64,000 bases of DNA from Polyangiaceae bacterium. GTDB lineage: Bacteria > Myxococcota_A > Polyangia > Polyangiales > Polyangiaceae. Positions 25,942 to 28,373 of this stretch are shown here, piece after piece; the stretch's first letter is position 1, and every line of letters starts with the position of its first letter. The DNA is taken from contig JADLEQ010000107.1 of the NCBI GenBank assembly GCA_020846005.1, positions 1 to 64,000 on the forward strand. Reading direction: 5' to 3'. Position numbers and translations under genes: made by a program. The notes under the pieces were generated by a model that saw only the letters and a list, made by a program, of their open reading frames with translations, was not told the DNA's origin and ran no database searches.

Positions 25942-27753
25942 ATGCGCGTGGCGCTGCTCTACCCGCCGCCGTGGAAGCTCGAAGCGCCGGGCGGGCCGTC
26001 TGTGCCTCCGGGGTCCGGCCCGCCCGACGGATGGAGTGAGGGCGATCTGGACGCGGACTTCCACCAGGTCCCGTACGGGCTCCTCTCCCTCGCCGCACAG
26101 GCGGAGCGCGCCGGACACAGCGTCGTGGTCCTGAACCTCTCGGCGTCGCAGTGGCCGGAGGTCGAGCGCATCCTCGGATCGCTGGTCGCGGACGTGGTGG
26201 GGCTGAGCTGCTGGACAGCGAACCGACGCGGGGTCGGCTACGTCGCGCAGGCGGTCAAGGCGGCGCGGGCAGACACCCACGTCGTGGTCGGCGGGCCGCA
26301 CGCGTCGCCGCTCGCCCGCGAGCTCCTGGCGCACCATCCCGCCATCGATACGGTGTGCATCGGCGAGAGCGAGGAGACGTTCCTCGAGCTGCTCGCGAGG
26401 CTCGAGCGCGGCGAAGGGCACGCGGGGATCGCGGGCACCGCGTACCGTGACGTAGGCGTGCCGGTGCTCGCGCCGGAGCGCCCGTCGATCGCGGACCTGG
26501 ACACGCTCGCCTCGCCGCACGACCGGTTCGCGACCCACATCGTGATGACGTCGCGAGGCTGTCCCTGGCAGTGCACCTTCTGTGGCGCAGAGACGACCTG
26601 GGGCCGCGGCTTCCGCGGCCGCAGCGTCCCGCGAGTGCTGGACGATCTAGCCGCGGCGCTCGAGCGCGTGCCGGTCCGCGTCCTCCTCGTCAAGGACGAC
26701 ACCTTCACGGCGAACCGGCGGCGCGCGCTGGCGATTTGCCAGGGGATCCGCGAGCGCGGCCTGCGCTTCGCCTGGAGCTGCGACACGCGCGTCGACGTGC
26801 TGACCGAGGAGCTGGTGCGGGAGATGCGCCTCGCCGGTTGCGAGCGCCTGAGCCTGGGCGTGGAGTCGGGCGCCGAGAGCATCTTGCGCAACATCGACAA
26901 GAGGATCTCGGTCGCACAGATCGAGGACGCGGCCGCGCTGGCTCGCCGGTACGGCCTGCGGACCCGCTTCTACATGATGCTCGGCAACCGCGGCGAGACA
27001 CGGGAGACCTTCCGCGAGTCGCTGGCGTTCCTCGAGCGCGCGCGGCCGAGCCAGTACGTCTTCTCCTGCCTCTCGGTGTATCCAGGGACCCTCGACGCGG
27101 AGGCGGCCGAGGCCGCAGGCTGGCTCGACCGCGAGGTGTGGTTCCAGGGCTCCTTCCAGGAGCTCAAGGTCCCTTTCGACGCGCCGCCCGAGCTGACCCG
27201 CGAGCTCGACGAGTGGTTCGCCGCTCACAAGGGCGTGCGGACGATGCACCGCCCGGGCGCGGCCGAGTGCGGCGAGGTGCTCGCGCGGCTGGGAGATCAC
27301 CCTCCCGCGCACCTGGACCTCGCCGTCGCGTGCTTCCGCGAGGGGGAGCTCGCCCGAGCCCGCGGGCACGCGGGGCGCGCGCTCGAGCTCGGGCATCCGC
27401 TCCCTGGCCTCGTCTTCAACACGCTCGCGTGCGTCGCGCTCGCCGAGGGTGACGTGGAGGGCATGCAGGCGTGGCTCCTGCGAGCGGCGCGGAAAGACCC
27501 ACAGCACGCGATCCTGATCCGGAACGTGAACGCCGCGCGCGCGTGGTTCGCTCGGCGCGGCCCGGAGCGCAGCGAGCCGCTCGAGCTGGACGCGGAGCTC
27601 GACTTCCAGCTCCTCGAGCGCACGCTGCAGCCGACGCTCCCGGGGCCCGTCTCGGCCGGGCTCCTCGAGTGGCCGCCAGCCGGGCCGGGCCGCAGCGCGT
27701 CGGGCCCCATGCGGCTGCCGCTCGCCCCCCACGCAGCGCCGAAACCTTGCTGA
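25942..27753 (+). CDS. cobalamin-binding-domain radical SAM protein
   Basis: A 603-residue B12-binding-type radical SAM enzyme. Residues 1-190 form the Rossmann-like domain (RVALLYPPPW, VVGLSCWTAN, HVVVGGPHAS, CIGESEETFLELL). The [4Fe-4S] motif is CPWQCTFC with Cys207, Cys211 and Cys214, and the barrel continues to about 400 (KDDTFTANRRRALAIC, LSLGVESGAESILRNI). The classic DxHxxG cobalamin ligand is not evident. Residues about 420-520 add a helical, TPR-like extension, unusual for the family. The chemistry is unknown. A TAGCCT box (25923-25928) lies 13 nt upstream of the ATG. Confidence 0.75.
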   Translation: MRVALLYPPPWKLEAPGGPSVPPGSGPPDGWSEGDLDADFHQVPYGLLSLAAQAERAGHSVVVLNLSASQWPEVERILGSLVADVVGLSCWTANRRGVGYVAQAVKAARADTHVVVGGPHASPLARELLAHHPAIDTVCIGESEETFLELLARLERGEGHAGIAGTAYRDVGVPVLAPERPSIADLDTLASPHDRFATHIVMTSRGCPWQCTFCGAETTWGRGFRGRSVPRVLDDLAAALERVPVRVLLVKDDTFTANRRRALAICQGIRERGLRFAWSCDTRVDVLTEELVREMRLAGCERLSLGVESGAESILRNIDKRISVAQIEDAAALARRYGLRTRFYMMLGNRGETRETFRESLAFLERARPSQYVFSCLSVYPGTLDAEAAEAAGWLDREVWFQGSFQELKVPFDAPPELTRELDEWFAAHKGVRTMHRPGAAECGEVLARLGDHPPAHLDLAVACFREGELARARGHAGRALELGHPLPGLVFNTLACVALAEGDVEGMQAWLLRAARKDPQHAILIRNVNAARAWFARRGPERSEPLELDAELDFQLLERTLQPTLPGPVSAGLLEWPPAGPGRSASGPMRLPLAPHAAPKPC

Positions 27754-27782
27754 AACGGTAGGCTATATTTCACTTTCGCAAG

Positions 27783-27796
27783 ATCGCATCGGCGAT
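27783..27796. repeat. inverted repeat ATCGC-ATCG-GCGAT upstream of the small RNA
   Basis: Perfect 5-bp arms with a 4-bp spacer are centred about 70 bp upstream of the predicted RNA start, a usual distance for a sigma-54 activator site. It lies in an unusually A+T-rich stretch (27754-27860). A direct repeat TGAATT (27813-27818 and 27823-27828, one helical turn apart) lies closer in. Confidence 0.35.
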
Positions 27797-27833
27797 ATGC
27801 TGGCCAAGTAGCTGAATTTGCATGAATTGACTG

Positions 27834-27849
27834 TGGCACACTGATTGCT
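27834..27849 (+). promoter_or_regulatory. sigma-54 promoter of the small RNA gene
   Basis: TGGCACA-CTGA-TTGCT matches the sigma-54 consensus at every conserved position; +1 is predicted at 27860. A sigma-70 reading is also possible (TTGACT at 27827-27832, 16-bp spacer, TAGTAT at 27849-27854 with an upstream TGC) and would start within 1-2 nt of the same base. Confidence 0.65.
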
Positions 27850-27859
27850 AGTATTCGTG

Positions 27860-27937
27860 CAGCGGCGACGTTCACGCCGTGTCCGACCTCGCAGCGGCCC
27901 GGGGTGCCCCCCCCCCTCCCCCCGGGCCGCTGTTTTT
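27860..27937 (+). ncRNA. predicted 78-nt small RNA with C-rich terminator loop
   Basis: This segment is bounded by a strong promoter and a strong intrinsic terminator, with no coding frame between. It would fold into a 5' hairpin (CGGCG 27863-27867, 7-nt loop, CGCCG 27875-27879), a short linker, and the terminator stem (27892-27904 with 27920-27932). The 15-nt loop of that stem is almost all C with one CCTCC. A C-rich loop of this sort is complementary to Shine-Dalgarno sequences, as in bacterial sRNAs that block translation. The neighbouring genes (radical SAM ending 27753, ftsB-like on the other strand) do not explain it. Confidence 0.6.
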
Positions 27938-27941
27938 ATTT
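27892..27941 (+). terminator. strong Rho-independent terminator of the small RNA
   Basis: A perfect 13-bp stem CAGCGGCCCGGGG/CCCCGGGCCGCTG with a 15-nt loop is followed by TTTTTATTT. It is the only classical U-tract terminator I noticed in the window. On the minus strand no T-run follows, so it works for + transcripts only. Confidence 0.9.
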
Positions 27942-28079
27942 CGAGTCGGCCGCGCGGGGACTCATGACGCTGGCCGTGCGTGGCGGGCGGGCGGCGACGC
28001 GCGGAGGCGGGCGGATCCTCGCGCGGGGCCTCTCGGGCGTCGCCGGAGCGACGTGCAGCTCGAGGCGCCGCCGCGCGAA

Positions 28080-28373
28080 TCAGCGGCCGAACTGGTAGAC
28101 GATCTCCGTCCGGCGCACGAGCCCGAGCTGGTCCCGGGCGACTCGCTCCACTGCTGACGGATCGTTCTTGACTCGCTGCACGTCGGACCGGAGTCGGTGA
28201 ATACGCTCCGCCAGCCTCGAGGCCTCTTCGTCTGCGCGGGCCTTCTCGGCGCGGAGCGTCTCGAGGCGGGCGAGCCCGTCCTCGGAGAGCACCATGACGG
28301 GGACGGACACCACCGCGAGCGCGAGGATCGCGACGGGGAGCAGCCGCTCGCCGATCAGGGTCCGGTCGAACAT
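28080..28373 (-). CDS. ftsB: FtsB/DivIC-like septum formation initiator
   Basis: A 97-residue bitopic membrane protein. A transmembrane helix (about 12-30, LLPVAILALAVVSVPVMVL) is followed by a coiled coil (about 38-70, LETLRAEKARADEEASRLAERIHRLRSDVQR). The FtsB-type ending is NDPSAVERVARDQLGLVRRTEIVYQF. In the divisome FtsB links FtsL and FtsQ and signals septal peptidoglycan synthesis. The ATG at 28373 is chosen as the start directly before the membrane helix. It stands alone here, divergent from the large kinase gene. Confidence 0.75.
   Translation of the reverse strand: MFDRTLIGERLLPVAILALAVVSVPVMVLSEDGLARLETLRAEKARADEEASRLAERIHRLRSDVQRVKNDPSAVERVARDQLGLVRRTEIVYQFGR

Follow-up and report, generated by a model that had tools for sequence, protein, structure and literature searches.

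The feature of interest lies between two convergent genes, one for a B12-binding radical SAM protein and one for an FtsB/DivIC-like septum protein, within the window (the whole 64-kb stretch of Polyangiaceae DNA that was analysed). An initial annotation had described a sigma-54 element, a 13-bp stem, a C-rich loop and a U-tract in this space, and all of these elements are present in the sequence (Table 1). The sigma-54 element is an exact match to TGGCAC-N5-TTGCW (11/12 when the optional G7 is counted), the terminator stem consists of 13 Watson-Crick pairs (27892-27904 with 27920-27932), and its loop reads UG-C10-UCC. The transcription start is a prediction from sigma-54 spacing, and the 3' end of the RNA is placed by the U-tract. 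The predicted folding energy of an 86-nt segment is -41.8 kcal/mol (z -4.3), which none of the shuffled sequences equalled. The first small stem-loop had been absent from the initial annotation.

Table 1. Features of the predicted small-RNA locus and its two neighbouring genes (window coordinates).
Feature	Positions	Strand	Basis
B12-binding radical SAM protein gene, upstream neighbour, outside the RNA	25942-27753	+	Pfam PF02310, PF04055
Putative activator-binding enhancer dyad TTTCACTTTCGCAA, consensus TTTCA-N4-TGAAA	27768-27781	+	Sequence match
Sigma-54 -24/-12 element TGGCACACTGATTGCT	27834-27849	+	Sequence
Predicted small RNA, about 82 nt	27860-27941	+	Sigma-54 spacing, U-tract, fold z -4.3
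First small stem-loop GCGGCG-ACGTTCA-CGCCGT, without C-run	27862-27880	+	Fold
C-loop hairpin: 13-bp stem, loop 27905-27919	27892-27932	+	Fold, covariance-model match
U-tract TTTTTATTT, putative intrinsic terminator tail	27933-27941	+	Sequence
FtsB/DivIC-like septum protein gene, convergent neighbour, outside the RNA	28080-28373	-	Pfam PF04977

Some of these elements carry limited weight on their own. Two copies of the exact sigma-54 motif lie in the 64 kb (27834 on the forward strand and 873 on the minus strand), so that it is not decisive alone, and C-runs of at least seven are common enough in the window (14 copies) that the C10 run by itself is not unusual. The sole TTTCA-N4-TGAAA dyad with at least 8/10 matches in the 64 kb is the one located 66 bp 5' of the sigma-54 element, which the initial annotation had not mentioned, and this uniqueness, together with conservation in relatives, raises the observation above chance. 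Two further strong sigma-54 elements on the minus strand, at 873-858 (TGGCACGCTGCTTGCT, 12/12) and 3212-3197 (TGGCACGGCGCGTGCT, 11/12), are found without a TTTCA-N4-TGAAA dyad.

We searched related genomes for the hairpin using sequence, pattern and covariance-model approaches. A DNA search of 59 relatives recovered the stem together with its C-loop from a second genus (genome G007); matches at G000:C1:61118 and in G023 and G032 were rejected as C/G-rich chance similarity without a hairpin. A pattern combining loop, stem and U-tract was matched in five genera (reversed control, 0), and the matched loci had a sigma-54 element 28-77 nt 5' of the first C-loop hairpin. Arrays in these relatives range from a lone hairpin to tandem rows of six or more. 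The initial annotation had held that its reading would fall if the loop were not conserved in relatives, and had proposed a covariance-model search; the C-loop is kept, and a first model, built from nine hairpins with the window hairpin among the founders, matched 55 of 108 Polyangiaceae genomes, Sorangium and Polyangium included. A second model (E<=1e-4) matched 47 Polyangiaceae genomes and six others of the order. The window hairpin scored E 8.4e-14 against a model of which it is itself a founder sequence.

The stems of these hairpins change while keeping their pairing. Among 107 distinct aligned hairpins, two-sided changes were found at all 12 pairs, and 96% of cells were paired. Stem covariation in this alignment, itself fitted to the model, was 0.687, compared with at most 0.11 for slid structures; the first alignment, of nine sequences and made without model fitting, pointed the same way (0.458 versus at most 0.167). 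Radical SAM or FtsB synteny around the hairpin was not conserved in relatives. Scanned against Rfam at gathering thresholds, the window and four array loci yielded tRNAs and no other Rfam family, and a literature search on C-rich sigma-54 sRNAs in myxobacteria found nothing on a Polyangiaceae hairpin family. In two genomes, C-loop hairpin matches were dense over 1.8-2.6 kb (L112, G078:C71:16000-22000; and G033:C1:9574461-9577064), denser than in the other genomes. The initial claim that the RNA contains no coding frame stood in part: a mechanical 92-aa open reading frame (27879-28157) crosses the region, but most array regions in relatives contain stops in varying frames, and a coding reading of the arrays was rejected on these grounds. 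Conservation turns the single observation into a gene family. We are highly confident that the locus is a small-RNA gene driven by sigma-54 and belonging to a conserved family, and the RNA is very probably a member of an undescribed Polyangiaceae small-RNA family controlled by a two-component activator via sigma-54.

The promoter evidence was gathered by picking 58 arrays on their hairpins alone and searching up to 260 bp upstream for sigma-54 elements (at least 10/12). Such a match was found for 81% of arrays versus 1.2% of anchors placed at random in those loci, and a match with the right spacing for 72% versus 0.14% of control anchors. The distances from promoter to hairpin formed two classes, in the nearer of which the first hairpin mostly begins within about 6 nt of the predicted start. 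The TTTCA-N4-TGAAA dyad (at least 8/10) accompanied 87% of 52 promoters versus 1.1% of real control stretches, and lay 64-68 bp upstream of the sigma-54 element in 36 of the 52. Promoter, enhancer and their phasing, like the hairpin, its conservation and its covariation, are computational observations. A phased -24/-12 element and enhancer before a predicted terminator-bearing RNA would place the window gene among the sigma-54, activator-dependent sRNAs. The initial annotation had also read a sigma-70 promoter with nearly the same start; the overlap exists here, but is found in only two of the 52 family promoters, the window's included, and is probably incidental.

The dyad and sigma-54 pattern alone, searched without reference to hairpins, gave 52 matches in the 108 genomes versus four in the control. 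Nearly all of those fetched run directly into C-loop hairpins; the exceptions were a single-domain receiver gene (loci L167 and L168) and one chance match inside a gene (L176). When a C7 run was added and the search extended to 84,980 genomes, 34 stretches were found, nearly all in Myxococcota or Deltaproteobacteria and many in Polyangiaceae, including Sorangium cellulosum and Polyangium fumosum. At L167 (1501-2070) and L168 (703-1316), the dyad and sigma-54 element precede a single-domain receiver protein gene beside queA, which at L167 lies directly 3' of the candidate activator gene; the receiver is a possible protein member of the dyad regulon. In two Sorangium cellulosum loci (L263, L264), the dyad and sigma-54 element lead into a CAGAGCGCCCGG hairpin that has no C-run, either a degenerate member of the family or a different one.

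Pxr, the Myxococcus RNA that blocks fruiting-body formation as long as nutrients are plentiful, had been named as a precedent in the initial annotation, and the relation proved closer than could have been known from the window. The pxr gene has a sigma-54 promoter and sits 3' of nla19, the gene for the sigma-54 response regulator PxrR, and the RNA was reported only from Cystobacterineae, where it was described as a recent invention (PMC5568312). The binding targets of Pxr are stated to be unknown (PMC11928866). In a Myxococcaceae MAG (L187), an NtrC-type response regulator gene (GAFTGA motif, recognition helix STTLWRKMKRLGI) is followed by a pair of dyads, then a sigma-54 element, then an RNA. 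The Pxr model RF01812 aligns with the whole of this RNA at 42.6 bits (E 2.7e-6), short of the gathering score of 80. Judged by sequence, L187 appears to bridge the Polyangiaceae family to Pxr.

The window's genome encodes a candidate regulator of this type on another contig (G000:C59), with recognition helix SPTTLWRKMTRLGI and 54% identity to the L187 protein and 74% to that of L167; among the other NtrC-type paralogues of these genomes, identity to the L167 protein goes up to about 45%. The dyad and sigma-54 element lie just 3' of a PxrR/Nla19-like regulator gene at L167 and in five further relatives. An activator gene beside the arrays was seen only at L187, in Desulfovibrio sp. A2 and at L167 (there before the single-domain receiver gene). 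Co-occurrence of activator and arrays is not clean, with the activator found without a detected array in several genomes and arrays detected without an activator orthologue in G028. Neither was detected in G012, G013 and G030.

The window RNA thus invites a direct comparison with Pxr. Both have a sigma-54 promoter with an upstream enhancer, an NtrC-type response regulator (in the window's genome a candidate only) and an oligo-C loop. Both also come from bacteria lacking Hfq, which is absent from myxobacteria (PMC5568312) and was found in none of 59 genomes in our search, with controls working. SL1, the first stem-loop of Pxr, reads GCTGAAGGTGGTT-C6or7-ACCCCTTCAGC, as deduced from published oligonucleotides (PMC5568312; PMC5684412), and folds with the C-run in its loop; a published C-to-A change at the fifth base of this loop abolishes function. 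The two RNAs differ in that Pxr carries its oligo-C on SL1 (C6-7) and the window RNA its C10 on the terminator hairpin, that Pxr has three stem-loops and the window RNA two (relatives, one to six or more tandem C-loop hairpins), and that Pxr adjoins nla19/pxrR whereas the window RNA has radical SAM and FtsB genes as neighbours. RF01812 gave no match in the window at E<=10 and none in 20 array loci at E<=3, so we call these RNAs Pxr-like and not Pxr, and common descent of the RNA itself is unproven. It is quite likely that the window RNA and Pxr have their regulatory logic and active loop in common.

What the family conserves in the loop is the oligo-C run and not an anti-Shine-Dalgarno core. 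The run is near-invariant, and its greatest length per loop is mostly 6-9 C, with a mode of 8, over 93 unique hairpins; CCTCC occurs in 35% of the loops. The continuation TCC, the commonest, follows the run in roughly 38%. U-tracts of at least four follow the last hairpin of an array in 44 of 51 cases and inner hairpins in 16 of 42. The initial interpretation is accordingly divided: conservation of the loop favours a sigma-54-driven small RNA whose C-rich terminator loop would be functional, while its anti-Shine-Dalgarno component is weakened by the low share of loops with CCTCC.

A C-rich loop held constant over changing stems is the pattern of known C-rich-loop sRNAs. In Xanthomonas, sX13 likewise has several stem-loops with C-rich loops and acts on G-rich mRNA motifs independently of Hfq; its loop motifs are 4C/5C, compared with mostly 6-9 C in the Polyangiaceae hairpins, and we know of neither a sigma-54/enhancer arrangement nor a tandem hairpin array for it. 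RepG (Helicobacter pylori) uses a C/U-rich terminator loop to pair with a homopolymeric G-repeat within the leader of an mRNA, but RepG is not an array, and we know of no sigma-54/enhancer control for it. GsrN (Caulobacter) pairs through a C-rich loop of six cytosines with a G-rich site in the katG leader, and differs in having a single loop and control by a general-stress sigma factor, not sigma-54. The CcsR ('CCUCCUCCC') sRNAs (RF02791), known in alphaproteobacteria under other control, share the C-rich loop motif; the CcsR1 covariance model reached 10.2 bits in the window, compared with a cut-off of 65.3. Qrr, GlmY and CrcZ are sigma-54 sRNAs under an NtrC-type activator; they differ in their activator sites and seed sequences and are without an oligo-C loop.

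A resemblance outside Myxococcota was found in Desulfovibrio. A non-coding RNA encoded 3' of the DVU0679 gene of D. vulgaris is a target of that gene's product, a GAYTGS regulator, and gave a tiling-array signal. This RNA, Dv_sRNA2, resembles the present family as a sigma-54 non-coding RNA downstream of a GAYTGS response regulator; the regulator's recognition helix differs, and the RNA is likened here from its published description. In Desulfovibrio sp. A2, a dyad, a sigma-54 element and several C-run hairpins lie directly 3' of a GAYTGS response regulator gene, and these hairpins are likely the counterpart of Dv_sRNA2. The segment (L266, 1850-4030) also has a histidine kinase gene ahead of the regulator gene, and an FMN riboswitch lies downstream. 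The Desulfovibrio link to the Polyangiaceae family is suggestive.

We propose, with a probability of about 0.65, that 27768-27941 is a free-standing Pxr-like small-RNA gene controlled by an NtrC-type activator and sigma-54, whose C-loop pairs with G-tracts in mRNAs. An NtrC-type response regulator encoded elsewhere in the genome, for which the PxrR/Nla19-like protein is the candidate, would bind the dyad and switch on sigma-54 RNA polymerase at the -24/-12 element. Transcription would start near 27860 and stop at the hairpin's own U-tract, giving an RNA that exposes one C10-UCC loop, or one to six or more such hairpins in relatives, so that array length could set the dose. The loop would then pair with G-tracts of target mRNAs, for the most part close to ribosome-binding sites, and would need no Hfq to do so. 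From the computed features we infer expression, the activator's identity, this pairing and any developmental role; the pairing is drawn by likeness to the Pxr SL1 loop, sX13, RepG and GsrN, and, given that the RNA is real, we consider it somewhat better than an even bet.

The main rival to G-tract pairing is that the C-loops of this sigma-54 RNA gene are decoys for an RNA-binding protein, in the manner of CrcZ or CsrB. Cold-shock and KH-type proteins are candidates, as is Rho, which favours C-rich RNA. RNAs that titrate proteins show this pattern of tandem copies whose loops hardly vary while their stems change freely, and protein binding would explain the conserved loops equally well. No base-pairing target has been found: a rough and uninformative tally of G7 tracts directly ahead of ATG codons in the window's genome showed no excess (54 versus 54 for the reversed pattern). 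We still regard a decoy as unlikely: the oligo-C-loop RNAs that serve as precedents (sX13, RepG, GsrN) act by pairing to G-rich mRNA, and no oligo-C-binding partner is known in these genomes. A strict anti-Shine-Dalgarno RNA, in which CCUCC would be the active part of the loop and block the GGAGG sites of leadered genes, agrees with the CCCUCC of the window loop and the frequent TCC continuation but runs against the C-run being the conserved element, and is decidedly improbable. Least probable is that the hairpin merely terminates the upstream radical SAM gene and the sigma-54 element is a chance match. The hairpin does lie 140 nt past that gene's stop codon in convergent intergenic space, but none was seen behind radical SAM orthologues, the same hairpin recurs in unrelated contexts behind a phased sigma-54 element and dyad, and the dyad is unique in the window. 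The hairpin may still stop read-through from the radical SAM gene.

Taking the Pxr-like gene with G-tract pairing as the preferred reading, we tentatively extend it, at odds short of even, to a broader scheme: Pxr may be one branch of an older and wider system in Hfq-less Myxococcota, and perhaps some Desulfovibrio, made up of PxrR-type activators and sigma-54 RNAs with the oligo-C loop as their only shared functional part. How many loops stand in tandem, from one to six or more, would set the dose of a common G-tract-directed signal, possibly one that gates multicellular development. The enhancer, promoter and oligo-C loop common to Pxr and distant Polyangiaceae (Sorangium, Polyangium) suggest that the C-run is the conserved active part, and the shared loop points to G-tract mRNAs as Pxr targets. 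The Polyangiaceae family would make the question of Pxr targets testable by species comparison, ties a candidate activator to a putative binding site (TTTCA-N4-TGAAA), and may serve as a simple model of how GC-rich bacteria regulate without Hfq.
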